Assembly (NCBI GenBank): GCA_009667805.1
Contig: CM019065.1
Coordinates: 153,858,101 to 153,922,100, forward strand
DNA length: 64,000 nt
Reading direction: 5' to 3'
Source: Leptobrachium leishanense
Lineage: Eukaryota; Chordata; Amphibia; Anura; Megophryidae
A program made the position numbers and the translations under genes. This document shows, piece after piece, positions 47,611-60,072 of this stretch (within the stretch, counting starts at the first letter, position 1; each line of letters begins with the position of its first letter). Under the pieces are notes generated by a model. That model was not told the DNA's origin. It saw only the letters and a list, made by a program, of their open reading frames with translations, and did no database searches.

Positions 47611-48190
47611 AGCACCATGCTCGGTGGGCAGGGGGCGTGGTGTGGCGCAGCCTAACGACGTGGTGCAGCCAGGTTTAAATCCATTTGGCTGAGAGACACT
47701 CGTTGCCCTGACTTGGTTTTACCTCCTCTCAGTGCCCGTTATAGAAATCATTGTATACTCGTGTATGACCTCTGCTTGTCTGAGTACTCTCCTGGCTCTT
47801 AACCCCTTGGCTCTCGTTTTGGCTACTCTCACTCTCTTTGGCGATACTGACCCTTGGCATACAACTGACACGCTCTCTCTGGCAATACTGACTCCTGACA
47901 TACGGCTGACACTCTCTCTGGCGATACCGACCCCTGGCATTCCTCTGTTAACCCTGTGTATCAGTCTCCTGTTTATCTTGTTTATCTGGTTACTGTTAAC
48001 CCAGAGTGTCAGGCTTTCACTCCACTGCATTTGTGGTTACTGTTTATTGGATTTGGCAATAGGTACATGCACCAACCATTCAAAGGATCGAGGATTAGGA
48101 TACACGTGCGGAGTATAGGGATCAGATTCATAGATATCAGGGGTATCGTGAAAACATACAATGAAACTATTGCATTAATTATTTAGGAAA
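47611..48190. other. No gene recognised apart from a tandem repeat
   Basis: Contains the three-unit repeat listed at 47830-47945. A 128-codon frame runs across it, but its sequence follows the repeat and shows no domain. Confidence 0.4.
47830..47945 (+). repeat. Tandem repeat, about 40-bp unit, three copies
   Basis: Units of the type CTCTCTGGCGATACTGACCC followed by TGGCATAC and ACTGACA. Confidence 0.75.
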
Positions 48191-48676: not shown

Positions 48677-48680
48677 ATGG
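48677..48680. repeat. ERV target duplication ATGG (left)
   Basis: ATGG directly precedes the LTR here and directly follows the other LTR at 57716-57719. Four bases is the usual size for gammaretrovirus-like integration. Confidence 0.8.
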
Positions 48681-48776
48681 TGTAACCGGAGTCAATCAGG
48701 TTCACTTCATTAACGGCGCCGGACCAGACACAAGCAAGGATTGTCCAAACACTAGTCTCTTCAGGAAAGGCAAGAG

Positions 48777-48782
48777 TTTATT
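48777..48782 (-). promoter_or_regulatory. LTR polyadenylation signal
   Basis: AATAAA on the minus strand, about 96 bases from the LTR 3' end. The same signal is in the other LTR near 57136-57141. Confidence 0.65.
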
Positions 48783-49269
48783 GTGTCGTCACACAAGTGC
48801 TCACACAGGATTGAATCGCTTAGAGTGAGCCCCGATTACACCGAGACATGAGGTTTTATGCCCCAAATACATAATTAGGTACATCCCCATTAGCCCACCT
48901 CCCTATGACACTCTATTCCACCCCACGTGGGTTAATACCTCCCATCATTAATTCGAACACAAAGAACATTCCACATATAACTATAAATTGATACACTTCT
49001 CGTTAGTTTGACAGTCTGTGATTTGTTTGTGCTGTCTTTCTCCGCGCAGTGCCTCCCTCCCTATCGGCTATGTTTATTCAGATGGCCTGGGGCCCGGTCT
49101 TCTATACTCCTTCGTCTTTCCGCCGGCCCCACCGACCTTGGAGTCGCTTTTCTCCTCCGTGCCAGGAACAGACAGAGATCTTTCATAAAACTTTAATTGC
49201 TTTTCTGCTAATCTAAACGCATTCCTAAGTTTCTACGTATACCTCATTCTAGTCTCAGCTACAAACCTG

Positions 49270-49281
49270 TCTATTTATATA
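49270..49281 (-). promoter_or_regulatory. LTR TATA box
   Basis: TATATAAATAG on the minus strand, upstream of the polyadenylation signal in the LTR. The equivalent in the 5' LTR, which would drive the provirus, is near 57629-57640. Confidence 0.6.
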
Positions 49282-49356
49282 CAAGTGAACCAATATTCTG
49301 AACAAGATGGCCGCCTGTGTACAATGGCGGCCGTCTTTCAGCCTATTTCCACTTCA

Positions 49357-49369
49357 TTCCCCCCTTGGC
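49357..49369 (-). promoter_or_regulatory. Polypurine tract
   Basis: AAGGGGGGAA directly upstream of the 3' LTR on the minus strand, the usual primer site for plus-strand synthesis. Confidence 0.75.
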
Positions 49370-49426
49370 TCAAGTGTCAGGATCTTTTCCTGGCACTTGT
49401 AGCCATTACACTCCACTATTCTGAAA

Positions 49427-51209
49427 CTACTGAAAAAGGGGGGTTTCTTTCACTGGGAACATACCCTGTGGAATTATCAGTGGTATCTTCTGTGTTTGTG
49501 TAGATATCAGTGCTGTTTTGCACAGTGGCCATAAACATAGCCCTATACGGTATATCAGTATCCCTATGATCAAAATCACCACTATCATAAGTATCATGGA
49601 TCCAATCCTTGAGATAAATCGTAAGATAGAACCAAACCATTCTCCCATTGCTCCAAACCCACGGAGCAGATTCCAACCTTCGGCAGCAATCCTTCTGGCT
49701 GTGCTACCTTCTCCTGATGATCTTGAATTACCTGGTAATAGTTTGGGACTTCGTGTGTAGTGTTTCTGATAAAGGTGCAACATTCATAGTGCATTGTCAT
49801 TTCACACAACCCATTCAAGGCCGCACTGATCTGCTCAAGCGCCATTTCATATATCATTTGCACCTTTCGTAACTCACGCATTTCCAGATTCAACAGCTGG
49901 ATATCCATACTGGTTCTATTCAGAATCTCATCCATCAGATTGACATAGCTATTCAATCTCCTCATCATCTCTCCTCCCCATCCAGTCCATGCTGGCAACC
50001 ATGTCCATATTCGATCCATCTTCGCAAACAATTCTCTCTTTGGTCTTTCAAACACCAGTGGGTACCTAGGGTGCAGTTCCGTGTCTGTGTTTGTGTCTTC
50101 TCCCCTTAGTCTCTGGATTGGGACCAGCTTAGCCAAATAACACATTCCCGTTATCGTTGGTGGTACCCATGTGTAACACACCCTTTCACAGCACACCTGG
50201 TACCCTCCTGTCACTATAAATGGTGATGAATGTAGTGTTCCCTTTGATATCTCTATCGCAAGATGTCTCAGCCGTCTCATCATATCCACTGCACCCTGCC
50301 TCCCATTGGTCCCATTCCCAATCACCGCCTCTTGGTCTCTAGTGAGTTGCCTGCATCGTATATATAAATAATTCGCCTTTTGTCCTGTTTTGAATATATA
50401 AATATATGATGTCCAGTTGAACTGACTTGAGTTACATAACCCACCCTCGTTATTTGTTTCTTTATCTGGTCCTAGTTGAAAACACCATTCTGGTGGATAC
50501 ACTGGTCCTATTATGGGGTACCCGGGACTGACTGATTCTGTCTTTTCCCTTTGTGCATCGACAGCATGTATTGTGATATTCCCTGATACAAACATACTCA
50601 AATTCATTGGAACAGAGGCAAATGGTATATGAATTGTCTCTGGGTGCAGTCTACTACACACCCAGCATGCAGTTTGCCCAGACTTTTTAGCATAGTCATA
50701 TTTTTGAATTGCACAAGTAAATGTCCTCTTGGGTTGGTTCCAGATAGCGCCTCTCGTTGTTGTCTCCACATGGTACGGTTCTCCATCACCGGGTGCGTAC
50801 TATTCCAGATATGGGAAATATCCACTTTCCCCACATTGCCCGTACAATTAGAGCATACTCCACGCGAGAGTCCATAAATCAAATTAGCAAAATATAAAAT
50901 CAGCACCACAAATGCCCCGAGTGTCAGAATTCCTTGGGCAATTCTTTTTACAGTCACATAAACCCAATCCCTCCCCACCGGAATTTCAAAAGTAAAAAAC
51001 ATTTCTGGATGATCAAGGGTGGGGGCCGGGCCCCTAAAAAGCACCCTGTGGTTATCCCCCGTTGGCAGGTGGTCAGGGTCTGTGCCCATCAAAACACCCA
51101 CTTGTTGATCCTCTGAATCATCAGGGTTAGGATCATTTAGGTGCTCGTGACTGTGGTCTTTGTCAGCTTCAGCCTCAGCGGATTGGTCTCGTTGGCGACG
51201 ACCTTCCAT
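49427..51209 (-). pseudogene. env: Retroviral env, frameshifted
   Basis: Envelope glycoprotein remnant in three frames. The first frame starts at 51209 and has a charged, hydrophilic stretch of about 85 residues before a hydrophobic segment (residues about 90-114), so the signal is an internal anchor. A frameshift near 50760 leads to the second frame (to 49594), with CWVC near residue 35 of that frame, several N-X-S/T sites, a furin-type RPKR site (about 50035-50046), then a TM ectodomain whose cysteine cluster reads C-x7-CC (about 49777-49806). A second frameshift near 49700 moves to the frame ending at 49427, which holds the membrane anchor (SMILMIVVILIIGILIY) and cytoplasmic tail. It cannot be translated as one protein. 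Confidence 0.88.
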
Positions 51210-51920
51210 GTTAGCTCAGGACTGGCAGCTGCTTTTACTCTGGAGTGATGTATCCACGGGACCACCTCGGCAACCTTTACTGCTATAGGGGTTGATAACA
51301 GGACAAAATAAAAACCTCTCCATTTTGGACCTAGTGGATCATTTTTCCACTCTTTTACCCATCATTACTACCTGATCATTTAGTTTAATTTCTCCCAATG
51401 CCCGAAGGTCCCCCCTTAGTCCATTAATCAGAGGGGTTGGCCGTCCAAACATAAGTTCGTACGGACTTAGCTTCAATTGGGGGGTTGGTCTGCACCTAAT
51501 GTGCAAAAGGACTATCGGCAGCAAGTCCAACCAGCCCAGTGACGTCTCTTGGCACAGTTTGGACATCAAAGTCTTTAGAGTACGGTTCATTTTTTTTCAA
51601 CTTTTCCCGAACTTTGGGGCCTGTAGGCGGTATGTAGCTTCCAGGTGATGCCCAGTAGCCGGGCAAGTTGTTGCAAACAGTTCTGGATAAATGCAGGGCC
51701 ATTGTCTGACCCTATCTCGAGTGGAAGCCCGTAACGTGGTATTATTTCTTTCATCAGGCTCTTTACCACTTCTGTAGTCTTTTCAATTCTTGTTGGGAAG
51801 GCTTCCACCCATCCTGTCAAAGTGCACACCATCACTAGTAAATAGTTGTATCCTTTGCAGGGTGGCAGCACTGTAAAGTCTATTTGTAATAATGCCCTTG
51901 GGGATAGCCCGATGGGCCTG
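51190..51920 (-). pseudogene. pol: Retroviral integrase, core and C-terminal domain, frameshifted
   Basis: Catalyses integration of viral DNA in functional relatives. The preserved part starts with the RNase H-fold core: first aspartate in QIDFT (about 51880), the conserved TGWVEAFPT, the second aspartate in SDNGPAF, and the glutamate in SSGKVEK (about 51600). A shift in an A-run at about 51590-51597 follows immediately. The next frame (51590-51339) holds the end of the core. A further frameshift leads to the C-terminal module (DPLGPKWRGFYFVLL and WIHHSRVK, about 51330-51230), which overlaps the env start. The N-terminal HHCC zinc-binding domain is absent. Its place is taken by the OGFr-like segment. 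Confidence 0.88.
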
Positions 51921-51923
51921 TTC

Positions 51924-52484
51924 TCAAAATAACAAATCCTGTCTGTCTTGTGAATCTCTTACTGCTGGTATGAAAAAGTTCATTACACTTTTCTTCATTC
52001 TTGGCAGTCTGTTCTTGATAAGGATCTCCTTGAGGAAGAACCTCACCAGTGGGACTTGATATTCTTCTGCTCCCAATTCTCCCAGACTGTGCAGTATTCG
52101 TGTGATTCGTAGATTATTGTGAGAATTGATTGTCAAATTTTCAAAACGTGACGCGAAATTTTCTGCTCGTTCAACTTCAGTTATTTCTTTGTCTTCCTCC
52201 TCCCCCACTATTTTTACGCCGAAGAATTTCAGCATCATCTTGTAGGCTCTGCGCAGTCTTTGCTGAACTTCTGAGGTGTTAACCATTAGGCGTGTCTCTT
52301 GCGGATTTAGAGGAGTAGAGTAGAAATTTTGGCCTTGTGTCCGAGTTGGGAAAAGCCATTGGATATAATCTTAATTGAGTTCTATCAGTTCATAGTCATT
52401 TTGCCACTTGTGCAGTATTATTTCAATGAACTCGCCGTGGGGTTCAAACTTTTTCAAATTCATGTAGAACTCGTAATTTGGCAT
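51924..52484 (-). pseudogene. OGFr-like domain captured in the ERV, one internal stop
   Basis: Translation from the ATG at 52484 gives 186 codons ending with TGA at 51924-51926, with a single in-frame TAA at 52371-52373 (codon 38). The residues match the conserved N-terminal region of the cellular opioid growth factor receptor family (OGFR, OGFRL1): EFYMN at the start, a KW..DYE block before the stop, DYIQWLFP directly after it, RRAYKMMLKFFG, SHNNLRITRILHSLGELG, and PLVRFFLKEIL near the end. OGFR in mammals is reported as a nuclear-envelope receptor for Met-enkephalin that restrains growth. The segment is intronless, in the same sense as pol, preceded two codons upstream by an in-frame TAA, and followed by the integrase core. 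It is not a part of any retroviral pol I know. Capture from a spliced host transcript is my inference. Confidence 0.85.
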
Positions 52485-52489
52485 GGAAG

Positions 52490-53232
52490 GTTAAGGTTCT
52501 TGCTTGCAGATCAGTACGTTAGCTTGATCTTCTGTTGGCGGTGGCGGTTTTGCAGCTGCTTTTGCGGCCTGGTCTGCGCGTCTGTTACCTTTTGGAATTT
52601 CATCATGGCCTTTTTGGTGGCCACGGCAGTGCCTGATGCTGACAGCACTTGGTTTCCACACTGCTTCCAGGAGGGCCGTGATTTCTGCAGCATATTTAAT
52701 TTGTTGTTCTGAAGACGTGAGTAGGCCTCTTTCTTTTTAGAGTGCACCATGTGCATGGACTGTCATAAAAACGTATTTGGAGTCTGTATAGATATTTACT
52801 CTTTTGCCTTCAGAAATTTCAAGGGCTCTGGTTAAAGCTGTTATTTCAGCTAGTTGTGCTGATGTATGGCCTGGCAGTGGCTTTGCTTCGATGACTTCTT
52901 CTGTTGAGACTACTGCATAGCCGGAGACTTTCTTCCCATCATCCATGTAGCTGCTTCCATCAGTGAATAGCTGTAGATCGTATTTGTCTAGGGGTACGTC
53001 TTTCAAATCCGGCCTGCTACTGAACCAGTAACCTCCTGTCACATCCAGCAGAGCCTTGACAGCGTGGGGCACCTTGACATGAAGAACTTGTCCAAGGGTC
53101 AGTTTGTCTGCTTCTGCTATTAGCATTGCGGTGGCAGCCACTGCTTTCAGGCATGGGGGTAGGCCGCAGGCCACAGGGTCGAGTTGCTTGGAGCTCCTGG
53201 TCTTTGGTTGGGGTATGCGGCACACTGCTTCT
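52490..53232 (-). pseudogene. pol: Reverse transcriptase connection and RNase H, with stop
   Basis: Degrades the RNA strand of RNA-DNA hybrids in working retroviruses. The connection subdomain starts at about 53190 with SKQLDPVACGLPPCLKAVAA and LTLGQVLHVKVPHAV. RNase H follows with its first acid in LFTDGSS (about 52970), ITALTRALE, and NIYTDSKYVF (about 52770). A stop replaces the residue after HAHGAL (about 52740). The frame then reads ERGLLTSSEQQIKYAAE and HCRGHQKG with NRRADQAAK (about 52570). The last codons run to a TAA just upstream of the OGFr-like ATG. RNase H looks nearly complete apart from the stop. Confidence 0.87.
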
Positions 53233-53400
53233 TTTCTTTCTGCCCCCAGTGCACGTTTGGTACCTGTTAACTGGAAGCCCAGGTATTTTACGCTCTGTTT
53301 ACATATTTGTGCTTTCTATTTAGACACTCTGTAACCTGCTTGGCTTTCTGTGGGATATAATATTGTCTTAGAGCCACCGGTGTTGCGCCGGGCTGTGATT
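53232..53400 (-). pseudogene. pol: Reverse transcriptase fragments, core deleted
   Basis: Two pieces are fused. At about 53337-53390 the minus strand reads ATPVALRQYYIPQKAKQ, which resembles the start of a retroviral reverse transcriptase. It is followed directly by a piece from after the catalytic box (AGYRVSK, a stop, then KAQICKQSVKYLGFQLTG, to about 53232). The polymerase palm with its YxDD motif is missing between them. A further small deletion joins the thumb fragment (CRIPQPK) to the connection subdomain. The remaining sequence cannot encode a polymerase. Confidence 0.7.
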
Positions 53401-54390
53401 CAACTCATCTGGGCGGGTTTTCCTCCGCCCCCACCTCAGGAATTCCAAGGAGTAGTGCGTGCGGGGACAACAGGCAGAGTAGGTGCCGTGCGCCATTCTT
53501 CTTCCTTTGACATAACTACTGCGATTTTCACAGATTGGGGGTTGTGCGGGCTGGCTGGATCATGCTGCCGAATAGAGCCGCCACTCTCGGGCAGGTCTAA
53601 TTGAGCGTGACCCCCGGGAAAAAAAAAAAAAAAACCATAATTTGGGCTGGCAATTTGCAAAAAATATCCCGCCCCAGGAGCTGGATGGGACATTCGGGCA
53701 TATACACATACACATTGTGTAAACAATATTCTCAGAGATATTTTCCCGTAGCCCAAAACAGACTCTTAATACCACATCGAAAAAAAAAACAATAAATCAT
53801 TCCATCAAAAATCAAACAAAAACATACCTTTTAAAAACAGTAACCATATTTCAATTTGTTAATAAATTTCATATTTTGGTAGACAATTTTGTATACCATT
53901 ACATACTTATTATTGTTTATATGTAATAATATAAAAACCAGGAATCCTTTTCTTTTCTTTTTTTTTTTTTTTTTTTTATTTAATTCTAGCTCTGAACAAA
54001 ACTAAAACTTTCGGACTAATATTTAACACAAAGTATAAACATATATCTTGCACTCAGACTTCAGACAAATATTCTATTGTAACACACATTAAAATTAGCT
54101 AAGCATAGTACGCTGCACAGATACACAAAGGGTTAGCTATCAGAGAGCAAAGAAAAAACATCCTCCCTTGGCATATTTTACTGACTCCCTCCCTTCCCCC
54201 TTCTCTCTTGCAAACAGTCTGTCAGAAGCACTGCCTATACACCAGAGACGACGCTCAATCTCAACTTTTAATTGAACAGTTTAATAATCAATTAAAAAAC
54301 ACAATCGGACAAAATCAGTCTGAATCACGCACACACAAACTATACAGCACCGCAACCATCTCACTCCGTAAAATATTAATTTATTTTATG
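53401..54390. other. Unassigned sequence inside the ERV
   Basis: This stretch sits where the rest of protease and the start of pol would be. 53401-53600 is GC-rich with no clear domain. 53790-54390 is AT-rich with a T-run (53958-53978) and no open frame of note. It does not read as retroviral protein in any frame I examined. It may be an unrelated insertion or recombined template. Confidence 0.5.
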
Positions 54391-54392
54391 CT

Positions 54393-54540
54393 CCCATAAT
54401 ATCAACCTTATTTCCCATTGGAGATGCAATTTGCTTTGTTACAACAGAATATTCGGCACCTGTATCAACCATAAAAACTTCATCTTTATTTCCCACTCTC
54501 ATTGTGACCGTGGGCTCGTGGCTACCGAGCGGGATGGGCC
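54393..54540 (-). pseudogene. pro: Retroviral protease remnant
   Basis: A short minus-strand frame contains FMVDTGAEYSVVTKQ (about 54445-54480), the catalytic aspartate box of a retroviral aspartic protease, preceded by MRVGNKDEV. The frame ends at a TAA (about 54393) after some 38 codons. The flap and C-terminal parts are missing, so no active dimer could form. Confidence 0.75.
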
Positions 54541-54611
54541 CAGATCCCCGTCAATATACATCCTGCCCTTCAAATGATGTCCCCGCCAGTCCCACAAACC
54601 CCGCTCCATTC

Positions 54612-55922
54612 CCTTCACTTCTTTATTTCCTCTAAATCCCGGTTATGATACACCTTATTAGCGATCTCAACTAATTCACTAATACCTTTCCCCAAAAACC
54701 CATCTATTCTCTGTATTTTGTTCCGTATATCCCTCTTTGACTGACCCACAAACGAGGAGTTAATTAACCACTGATTCTCCGTTGTTTCAGGATCAATAGG
54801 ACTATACATCCTGTACGCATTCAGCAATCTCTCTAGAAACGCACTTGGGGATTTTTTTTTTTTTTTTTTAATCTCTTGCATCACATCTGCTATTTTTTTC
54901 CATGTTTGTGGGTTTCTTCCCTCCCGCTTTAACACCCATAATTACAGCAGTTCTGTATGTCTGCAGATGGGCAACTCCTTCAACTGTATTGTACGGCCAT
55001 TTAGGATCTGTTTTGGGGTAATGTTCCTCTGCCCATGCTTCTGGATAAGGCTTAGCATCTGCTACAGCTTGGGCGAGTAAAATCTTTCGCGCGCTACTAT
55101 TATCCGGGCTCTTTCCTCTGTGGTAAACATTGTCAACATTAATTGCTGACAATCTGCCCATGTGGGGTTATGTGTGAGCATAACTGACTCTATCATACTG
55201 GCCACTGCTGCGGGATTTGTGGAATACAGTGGTGTGTGTGTTTTCCAATTTAAAAAATCCGTTGTCGTGAACGGGACATATGTGTATTGCATTGGCCCTG
55301 GATTCCCATCCGCCAAGGGGGGGCCTGGCACCTCTCGCAAAGGCAACTGCATAGCATTCTTGTAGGGATTGTGTTGGTACGGATCCCGGGGTTATATATA
55401 CTATTCGCTGCGCGTGTGGTAACTCCCTGGTTCTCATCTTCCTCTTTATCATCACTATTCCCGTGGGGCACTAATTTATATACACTCCCATCGGGCATCT
55501 CAATCTTCTCTGGCTGCCCCATAACATAATAGATAGAACGGGGGTAAAACATCACTCTCTCTCTCTTTCTATTATTTTGGGGGTCCTGTTTCTTATTTCT
55601 CCCCGCTATCATTATAAAATAACTCTTATTTTTAATACAATATCTCCATATATCTATATACGGGTATTCTTCAGGATATCTGTACTGCTCTGTAACCTGG
55701 GAATATACCTTCTGTACCAACTCCGGGTCCATTGACCCCTGCTCTGGCCATCCTGGGACTAATAACGGCCACACAACTGTACACATTACTTTTAATTTCT
55801 CTTTTGTCAATTCTACACCATAATCATACGTTTTTATATAATGCTTCAAAATTTCGCACCATATATTCTAGGGGCATCTTACCCTCCTTTACCTTCTTGG
55901 GCTTAGATGACCTGTTACCCAT
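54612..55922 (-). pseudogene. gag: Retroviral gag (matrix and capsid), frameshifted
   Basis: The structural polyprotein of a class I retrovirus, in several frames. The likely start is the ATG at 55920-55922, with glycine as residue 2 (MGNRSSKPKK), suggesting N-myristoylation. A frameshift near 55835 leads to the long matrix frame (55849 to about 55380). Capsid begins near 55310 in another frame, with YVPFTTTDFLNWK, ESVMLTHNPTWADCQQLM and FTTEERARI. The frame 55161-54868 continues it, and a shift in an A-run (54851-54869) leads to SPSAFLERLLNAYRMYSP, ending at a TGA at 54612-54614 after EEIKK. No Cys-His zinc knuckle follows, so nucleocapsid is deleted. Confidence 0.88.
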
Positions 55923-57039
55923 TGTCACTCTTGAAAACAATACTTTTTGCGATACAATTATTATTTCAATAACAGTTAAAATCTACAGTCTGATACTTCA
56001 GTCAACAATTTATCCGCATCCACATACGCTTCCCCCTTCAGTAGCCGACTGCAGTCGCCTGAGCCGAAACCGTACGTTCCAGGGTCCACTCTCGAATTTG
56101 CTTCCTCGCGGAGCGAGTAGGCGCACGTTCACTCACAGCACTCAAGTCAATTCATTCACAACACATTCCGTATCAGATACTTTCAGCATAATATAGAACA
56201 TATATCACTTCAACTCTTTCCATTAGCCGAGGACGTATTCCCTCCTTAGTGGCTCCTTATACCCCGTAATTTGAACTCTAACTCTTGACTGCTTGTGGCT
56301 ATGTGCACCCCGTTCCTTGTCTACACTTCCGTCTGCAATTCCAATCTGCTTTATGGATAATCTACCCACTCAGCACCACTATCTCTGCAGCTATCGTTGG
56401 CTTCACTATAAGCCCTTGTCACTATACGACGTACACACTAGGCACTGACTCAGGCTCTCAGCCCAGTCACAGAAAAATCCTCCTCCTTTCCCGTTTACCC
56501 ACGTGGTGAAGCTCTATTTACAAACACTGAACTATGCAACTCCACGCAGCTACTTTCTCCCTCTCATACAGAACTACCCTTTGATTGGCATTCAATTCCC
56601 CCGAATCCAGACGCCCGCTAGCCACTCTGGCTCCTTAGCAATGTCAGCGCTACCAGCGGCGGGAAAGATATGCCAATAGGATGGTGGCCATCGCATCCTC
56701 TTATCCGTCTATCGCAGTCGGACGTTTCCCTTAGATACCGGTATTTCCTTTAGACATACAAAACATAGAAGACACGTTACCTATCGCCGGCGCTGCTTGC
56801 TGTTTCCTCGGACTCTGGTGTCCCAGATTCCCAGGTTGGGGGGGTCCGTTTGGGACGAGATGAGGTCCACTGTACAGGAAATCCTGCTTGGCGCCTGCAG
56901 ATGTCAGCTCACCTTCAATGGACGCCCCCAACCATCGGGATTCTGGCACTGCTGCAGTCAAGCGCCGCACTGTGTTCAGCAGCCGTTGCCTGTGTCTTGG
57001 CAAAAGGCCCGTTATCCCGGCTATCGAGACCCCAGAAAA
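55923..57039 (-). other. ERV 5' leader
   Basis: About 1.1 kb between the 5' LTR and the gag start, where packaging and splice-donor signals usually lie. I see no coding region. The frames on both strands are short. A splice donor was not assigned. Confidence 0.5.
57017..57034 (-). promoter_or_regulatory. Candidate primer binding site
   Basis: On the minus strand, TGGGGTCTCGATAGCC starts five bases downstream of the 5' LTR end. A TGG start is expected of a site complementary to a tRNA CCA end. I could not match it with confidence to a particular tRNA. Confidence 0.35.
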
Positions 57040-57715
57040 TGTAACCGGAGTCAATCAGGTTCACTTCATTAACGGCGCCGGACCAGACACAAGCAAGGAT
57101 TGTCCAAACACTAGTCTCTTCAGGAAAGGCAAGAGTTTATTGTGTCGTCACACAAGTGCTCACACAGGATTGAATCGCTTAGAGTGAGCCCCGATTACAC
57201 CGAGACATGAGGTTTTATGCCCCAAATACATAATTAGGTACATCCCCATTAGCCCACCTCCCTATGACACTCTATTCCACCCCACGTGGGTTAATACCTC
57301 CCATCATTAATTCGAACACAAAGAACATTCCACATATAACTATAAATTGATACACTTCTCGTTAGTTTGACAGTCTGTGATTTGTTTGTGCTGTCTTTCT
57401 CCGGGCAGTGCCTCCCTCCCTATCGGCTATGTTTATTCAGATGGCCTGGGGCCCGGTCTTCTATACTCCTTCGTCTTTCCGCGGGCCCCACCGACCTTGG
57501 AGTCGCTTTTCTCCTCCGTGCCAGGAACAGACAGAGATCTTTCATAAAACTTTAATTGCTTTTCTGCTAATCTAAACGCATTCCTAAGTTTCTACGTATA
57601 CCTCATTCTAGTCTCAGCTACAAACCTGTCTATTTATATACAAGTGAACCAATATTCTGAACAAGATGGCCGCCTGTGTACAATGGCGGCCGTCTTTCAG
57701 CCTATTTCCACTTCA
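57040..57715 (-). repeat. ERV 5' LTR
   Basis: 676 bp, with TG...CA ends on both strands, TATA and AATAAA equivalents as in the 3' LTR, and ATGG at 57716-57719 outside. It is the promoter-side LTR in the direction of proviral transcription. Confidence 0.92.
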
Positions 57716-58019
57716 ATGGGACAGGTAAAAAGGCTGTCCATTTACATTGGGTAAGATGGCAGAATGGGGTTGATGGTGGGAGGGAGGTAAGTGGTGAGGA
57801 TTTGGAGGTATTGATCTGAGAAATGGAGAAAATACTGTTTTGGAGGGTGAGTGCAAAGCAAAGGGACTGGTGGGGTGGAAGTGGATAACTTTGGGGTATA
57901 AATTGACAGAGCTTTTGTTTATAAGGGATAAGAAGAGTTTCAGAGAGCTGCTTTTTTTAAAAAAACAAACCAATCAGCATCACAGCAATACATAAAAAAA
58001 CCCACTTATTTTTAATAAT

Positions 58020-59779: not shown

Positions 59780-60072
59780 TCCCAGTTCACATGGATATAA
59801 TTGCCCCAGCTCTCATGGATAATGCCCCCAGCTCTCATGGATATTGCCCCCAGGTCTCATGGATAATGCCCCCAGGTCTCATGGATAATGCCCCCAGGTC
59901 TCATGGATATTGCCCCCAGGTCTCATGGATATTGCCCCCAGGTCTCATGGATAATGCCCCCAGCTCTCATGGATAATGCCCCAGGTCTCATGGATATATG
60001 ACCCAGGTCTCATGGATAATGCCCCAGGTCTCATGGATATTGCCCCCCAGCGTTTCATGGATAATGCCCCAG
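59780..60072 (+). repeat. Minisatellite, 22-bp unit
   Basis: About twelve units of the type CTCATGGATATTGCCCCCAGG, alternating ATATTG and ATAATG, and GGT and GCT. A unit of 22 bases shifts frame each time, so the encoded peptide cycles through three frames (MDNAP, SHGYCPQ, VSWI). Confidence 0.9.

Follow-up and report, generated by a model that had tools for sequence, protein, structure and literature searches.

In acutely transforming retroviruses, host oncogene sequence derived from spliced RNA is carried by viruses that are usually defective and short-lived. The dUTPase of non-primate lentiviruses sits between RNase H and integrase. Here we describe an endogenous retrovirus (ERV) of the toad Leptobrachium leishanense whose pol carries OGFr_N, a domain of the host opioid growth factor receptor (OGFR). 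The copy under study lies within a stretch of 64,000 nucleotides (the window; assembly GCA_009667805.1, contig CM019065.1, labelled C3 in our searches, positions 153,858,101 to 153,922,100 of the forward strand). We consider it very probable that the 5' part of a host OGFR mRNA was captured in frame into pol, was retained there and is under purifying selection, and that the window holds a young copy belonging to a broken subfamily.

Two described systems come close. The dUTPase of non-primate lentiviruses is located 'within the pol gene' (PMC1224870) and is, like OGFr_N, an extra pol domain. Certain crocodilian ERVs contain KIT-ligand mRNA or nectin3 (PMC4299795) and, as here, a host mRNA was captured by an ERV lineage. 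As far as the available portions of the two reports go, the former indicates that pol is able to take in a domain and the latter makes capture a known kind of event.

OGFr_N in the pol frame

The segment in question, 51924-52484, lies on the minus strand of the window, in the same sense as the provirus around it. It opens with an ATG two codons past a TAA (52491-52493), is interrupted by one internal TAA (52371-52373) and closes with a TGA (51924-51926). The 120-residue stretch encoded at 51924-52286 matches Pfam OGFr_N (PF04664) with an E-value of 6.7e-41 over profile positions 74-186 of 208. Its score is 140.5 bits against a curated cut-off of 22 (the related protein P0091 reaches 244.3), and PF04664 was present in all 17 matches of the first protein search. 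The top match of that search was a Leptobrachium protein, as were the first eleven rows of a further one. Upstream the domain is flanked by RNase H (52737-53225, E 2e-15), downstream by the integrase core (51587-51871, E 8.3e-14). The position, sense, start codon, both stops and family assignment given in a preliminary description of the window were all seen again.

OGFr_N is joined to one or both of its Pol neighbours in several predicted L. leishanense proteins. The partner is RNase H in P0020 and P0023 (from name and sequence) and in P0026 (from Pfam), and the integrase zinc domain in P0019 and P0022; P0084 and P0091 have both. The domain order in P0091, the representative of 49 sequences, is RNase_H 102-243, OGFr_N 265-468, Integrase_H2C2 526-581, rve 597-691 and MLVIN_C 799-852; P0084 has the same in-frame order without MLVIN_C. 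No dUTPase homology was found in these two proteins, as Pfam gives OGFr_N alone between RNase H and the zinc domain. Among the best 120 of 1042 matches listed in a protein search limited to proteins of up to 1072 amino acids and to the species in the database, all rows that contained an RNase H or integrase domain came from L. leishanense. Two other models from this toad, P0103 and P0104, run OGFr into env-like or late integrase sequence, through deletions or gene-prediction joins.

The same arrangement recurs across the genome (3,544,805,047 bases in 4632 contigs). An OGFr search gave 5871 loose candidates, a figure that should not be read as a copy number, and the best 150 were scored, a set biased to intact copies. 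All 150 exceeded the cut-off, 133 had no stop inside the match and nine lie within open frames that measure exactly 1440 codons. Twenty of the 150 (L041-L060), chosen mostly for the absence of stops, were inspected with their flanks. Each has the RNase H tail, then OGFr_N, then the linker and zinc domain, and in 13 of them a single open frame runs from the RNase H tail through OGFr and the linker to the integrase core. A genome search with MLVIN_C returned 150 places.

A further sample was selected by integrase, with the window's integrase core as the query and 150 scored of 28713 loose candidates. It consists of L021-L040, near the top of the list, and 19 usable copies of L066-L084, further down (L065 was dropped). 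In all 39 usable copies, which are spread over many contigs, OGFr follows the RNase H tail and precedes the integrase core. The domain is therefore fixed at the sampled divergence (integrase core at least 95% identical). Taken together, these frames describe OGFr_N as a predicted in-frame domain of Pol located between RNase H and integrase, not as a separate cistron.

Ahead of the host piece, the hinge pattern [SAVE]x[VMTI]L[LIPS][CY] occurs in 25 of 40 examined copies; it was written after the flanks had been seen and is given without a chance control. It is separated from OGFr by 13 residues in most copies and by 73-77 in L010, L011 and L013. This hinge may be a candidate protease site.

Donor gene and extent of the capture

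In a tree of 46 rows, the 20 ERV OGFr sequences form one clade (100/98). A branch supported at 99/97 unites this clade with the toad's own OGFRs (P0105 and P0115) against 24 other vertebrate OGFRs, the spadefoots Pelobates and Spea being among the latter. In an earlier tree, built without the toad's own genes, 21 ERV rows (100/99) adjoin Pelobates, Spea and Hymenochirus (80/85). Rows were picked as largely unbroken, and the 46-row tree was made without an oyster row and P0097. Six ERV rows compared with P0115 are 52-62% identical to it. The donor gene was an amphibian OGFR, and the Leptobrachium lineage is its most likely source. Transfer in the other direction, from virus to host, was considered and rejected: OGFR is widespread in vertebrates, and the ERV rows are a single branch beside the genes of one toad. 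In a protein of the poison frog Phyllobates terribilis (P0083), two OGFr_N-like stretches stand in tandem.

The toad OGFR genes are arranged in tandem on a contig labelled C12. There, tblastn distributes P0105 over seven blocks of the stretch L093 (residues 1-31, 33-60, about 118-137, 131-161, 162-185, 184-232 and 234-340), spanning about 8.3 kb. The host OGFr_N (residues 118-320) is split over five blocks in about 5.5 kb, with block ends that are tblastn ends and not mapped splice sites. ERV copies, in contrast, match P0105 residues 112-325 in a single unbroken stretch. Since residues 62-115 match the neighbouring stretch L095, the model of P0105 may combine exons from different tandem copies. 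Toad OGFR is apparently tandem-duplicated at L093-L095, where two 3' exon sets and three sets of N-terminal matches are found.

In several diverged ERV copies there is further homology, to residues 3-4 through 124-125 of the spadefoot OGFR. In L061, L063, L064 and L013 this host N-terminus is preceded by the RNase H tail and followed by the linker and integrase; it is missing from the young copies sampled. Since the host domain lies in five blocks and its ERV counterpart in one, and diverged copies keep the host N-terminus, the captured molecule was a spliced OGFR mRNA. The place of that N-terminus, between the RNase H tail and OGFr_N, indicates that the captured span began near the start codon and ended with OGFr_N, the C-terminal tail not being included.

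Retention, competing explanations and a proposed role

The ratio of nonsynonymous to synonymous substitution rates (dN/dS) was calculated pairwise by NG86 for dS of 0.1-1.5, using unbroken pieces only and leaving out L021-L039. The median was 0.12 for OGFr (118 pairs), 0.04 for the RNase H tail (101 pairs), 0.09 for the linker and zinc domain (103 pairs) and 0.05 for the integrase core (133 pairs). The ratio pN/pS, pooled over the window and L066-L084, was 0.19. At 75 host-invariant positions, where at most one of 26 vertebrate OGFRs deviates, the 20 ERV rows keep 1249 of 1467 cells (85%). OGFr_N of this ERV family thus shows the signature expected of purifying selection, with the pN/pS of the deletion-bearing subfamily (see below) as a caution. 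In the AlphaFold model of P0020 (33 sequences), the mean predicted local distance difference test (pLDDT) value is at least 90 in 20 of 21 ten-residue blocks between residues 51 and 260; block 141-150 has a value of 72, and the flanks are low. The model pictures OGFr_N as a compact foldable unit on flexible tethers.

These values bear directly on the view that OGFr_N has no function of its own and is a neutral passenger or spacer within Pol, which we consider improbable. The loss of the host N-terminus from the sampled young lineages agrees with such a view, and the low pN/pS of the deletion-bearing subfamily shows that ratios of this kind need care. However, the dN/dS of OGFr is close to that of the neighbouring linker and zinc domain, and the host-invariant positions have largely been retained.

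No better a chance is given to repeated captures, or to repeated gene conversion from host OGFR, in place of a single capture. As the donor is the gene of one toad, recurrent uptake could mimic a single clade, and an internal donor is not excluded for every copy. Set against this are the single ERV clade, which stands apart from the toad's two OGFRs, and the hinge, which is similarly placed before the host piece in diverged and young copies (by the post hoc pattern). The linker after the host piece points, with the hinge, to one event.

Less probable still is an independent accessory gene or cassette that has a start and a stop of its own, which is how the preliminary description had read the segment. 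The window taken by itself does suggest one, since the segment opens with an ATG after a stop and closes with a TGA. In relatives, however, the frame is open from RNase H via OGFr to integrase, and the apparent limits in the window can be attributed to the upstream stop and to a deletion of about 0.4 kb. The joint of this deletion lies at 51922-51926; in blastn against L042, about 0.41 kb is gone, taking the 3' end of OGFr, the linker and the integrase zinc domain. The same joint is common to 19 of the 20 nearest copies (L021-L040), which also lack the linker and zinc domain, while the near copy L040 holds the longer undeleted form. Eighteen of the joint-bearing copies align with the window in one piece at 96.8-99.9% nucleotide identity; L023 has the joint but aligned in two pieces owing to an extra gap.

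The window copy is therefore a young member of a subfamily amplified in broken form. This subfamily has been copied many times, presumably using the proteins of intact relatives. L021, L022, L036 and L037 are more diverged than the rest of it, and its low pN/pS may come from older divergence (a split before the deletion spread) or from recombination with intact copies. Finally, a host OGFR retrocopy that landed in one provirus, or an assembly chimera, has a negligible chance: nothing speaks for it beyond the bare window, and the identical arrangement in all the integrase-selected copies on many contigs speaks against it.

The interpretation offered in the preliminary description thus survives in one part and fails in the other. 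An intronless OGFr domain of host origin in an ERV is borne out by the five host blocks against the unbroken ERV match and by the 99/97 branch, and capture by a retrovirus is borne out by the many copies, the spliced form and the single clade with toad OGFR. The discrete cistron or cassette has to be given up, with relatives read in frame through Pol. Its suggested genome search did recover copies sharing a junction (the 3' joint), and the suggested phylogeny led to the donor described above. The outcomes that it named as fatal, namely no OGFr_N match, ordinary pol sequence or a chimeric assembly, are excluded by the Pfam match and the integrase-selected copies.

Several points weigh against a single retained and selected capture. 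All ERV copies compared carry the insert, and the pre-capture joint was not seen among them. ERVs with OGFr_N were seen in one species only. The dN/dS estimates rest on unbroken pieces, and their pairs share sequences. Pooled pN/pS is also low, at 0.13, in the deletion-bearing subfamily (the window with 19 relatives), although OGFr is truncated there. A fold search of the PDB gave no informative match. Translation of the domain, its content in virions and its cleavage are predictions.

Very probably, a gamma-like retrovirus of the Leptobrachium lineage took up the 5' coding part of a host OGFR mRNA, which was set into the pol frame after RNase H and before the N-terminal region of integrase. 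The insert was then retained across diverged subfamilies, with the young sampled lineages dropping the host N-terminus and keeping the folded domain. OGFr_N would be translated within Gag-Pol and carried in virions, where it could fold alone and act next to integrase, whether as an additional N-terminal domain or as a product released by protease. It might help the pre-integration complex to gain access to, or make use of, the nucleus or chromatin. We put forward this picture of a virion-borne, self-folding domain working beside integrase on a nuclear or chromatin step tentatively.

Among possible roles we lean, with similar reserve, towards nuclear entry, tethering or integrase assembly, ahead of competition with host OGFR. 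The preference comes from the nuclear site of cellular OGFR and from the adjoining integrase. According to the available part of one report, cellular OGFR is a nuclear-envelope protein that enters the nucleus via its localisation signals (PMC5876317). The same text cites work on karyopherin beta and Ran for cellular OGFR and describes an OGFr_N stretch in a nematode effector that is nuclear. A somewhat weaker candidate is competition in infected cells: the domain, as a truncated OGFR, would vie with the host protein in the control of growth or defence. More speculatively, and in our view rather doubtfully, a long-lived retrovirus lineage may have taken a host nuclear-trafficking and growth-control domain into Pol as a lasting subunit, one that modifies integrase or the pre-integration complex. 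If so, this subunit would be a built-in version of the type of host factor that other retroviruses borrow from the cell.

The window provirus among known systems

The provirus extends from long terminal repeat (LTR) to LTR at 48681-57715 on the minus strand, as do all its parts, and was delimited by the LTR pair, flanking ATGG and ordered Pfam domains; gag, pol and env are all broken. The 5' LTR (57040-57715) and 3' LTR (48681-49356) are 676 bp long, begin with TG and end with CA. A strict match covers 664 bp with two mismatches, plus six identical bases at each end. The 4-bp target duplication ATGG is found on both sides, at 48677-48680 and 57716-57719. Gag is represented by a matrix-like piece (55250-55849, Gag_MA, E 3e-8) and a p30-like piece (54615-54935, Gag_p30, E 1.3e-19). 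The RNase H tail runs on towards 52500 in the OGFr frame, stops included. Homology to the end of the relatives' reverse transcriptase (RT) extends to about 53344 in blastn against L042, L045 and L051, and past that position these three pieces gave no homology; the window lacks most of RT. The integrase C-terminal piece (51339-51590) is named by its place after the core, and the env region, with two overlapping open reading frames (ORFs; 49594-51209), by place only; Pfam searches of that piece and of both env ORFs gave no match.

Gag_MA and Gag_p30 in the window, MLVIN_C in the relative P0091 and the 4-bp duplication, tabulated as a class I (gamma-like) trait in the available part of a published comparison (PMC4299795), place the provirus in the gamma-like class. 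Outside the 5' LTR a 22-bp unit is repeated 13.1 times in an array (59781-60070), and outside the 3' LTR there are short tandem arrays of 41-bp and 24-bp units (47830-48015).

No OGFr in a retrovirus was found in the literature searched, which had preprints, subscription papers and supplements outside its scope and was limited to the best matches for broad topics. A scan of IMG/VR with the family alignment gave 273 pattern matches and no relative, and structure matches in BFVD included no host regulator domain inside Pol. BFVD does hold a further viral OGFr_N, that of a giant DNA virus: the 'Opioid growth factor receptor' protein of Marseillevirus LCMAC202 (A0A481YX38) has an OGFr_N-like fold (Foldseek E 1.3e-6, template modelling score 0.76 by target length). 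It differs from the toad ERV domain in being a free-standing protein of 186 residues with 21% identity.

The toad's cellular OGFRs, P0105 and P0115, have the same OGFr_N domain as the ERV. The cellular gene falls into several blocks and codes for a C-terminal tail, whereas the viral piece is without the tail. The likeness to acutely transforming retroviruses is the uptake of host coding sequence from spliced RNA; the difference is that in the toad ERV diverged subfamilies with long open pol frames retain the domain. With the dUTPase type of Pol, the toad ERV shares an extra in-frame domain within pol. The lentiviral dUTPase is, however, a nucleotide enzyme unrelated to OGFr_N, whereas the domain of the toad ERV comes from a host regulator.

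A host domain kept in Pol through the radiation of subfamilies makes the molecular role of OGFr_N testable, as well as how far the hinge between RNase H and integrase accepts and uses foreign sequence. According to the available part of a recent report, this toad is one of the threatened species in which retroviral invasion is still going on (PMC10435555), and it may therefore be possible to watch the process today.

For the capture itself, the crocodilian ERVs offer a parallel. In the portions of that report available to us, purifying selection is reported for the captured ORFs, as for OGFr_N here, and KIT-ligand capture is described without loss of ERV domains, a further likeness (PMC4299795). 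The nectin3 case is reported as a replacement of a viral part, unlike the Pol domain described here, and those portions note no in-frame insertion separating RNase H from integrase, unlike the toad ERV. What sets the toad ERV apart is a host regulator domain fixed inside Pol in the sampled copies, whereas the captures compared here are free-standing or replace a viral part.
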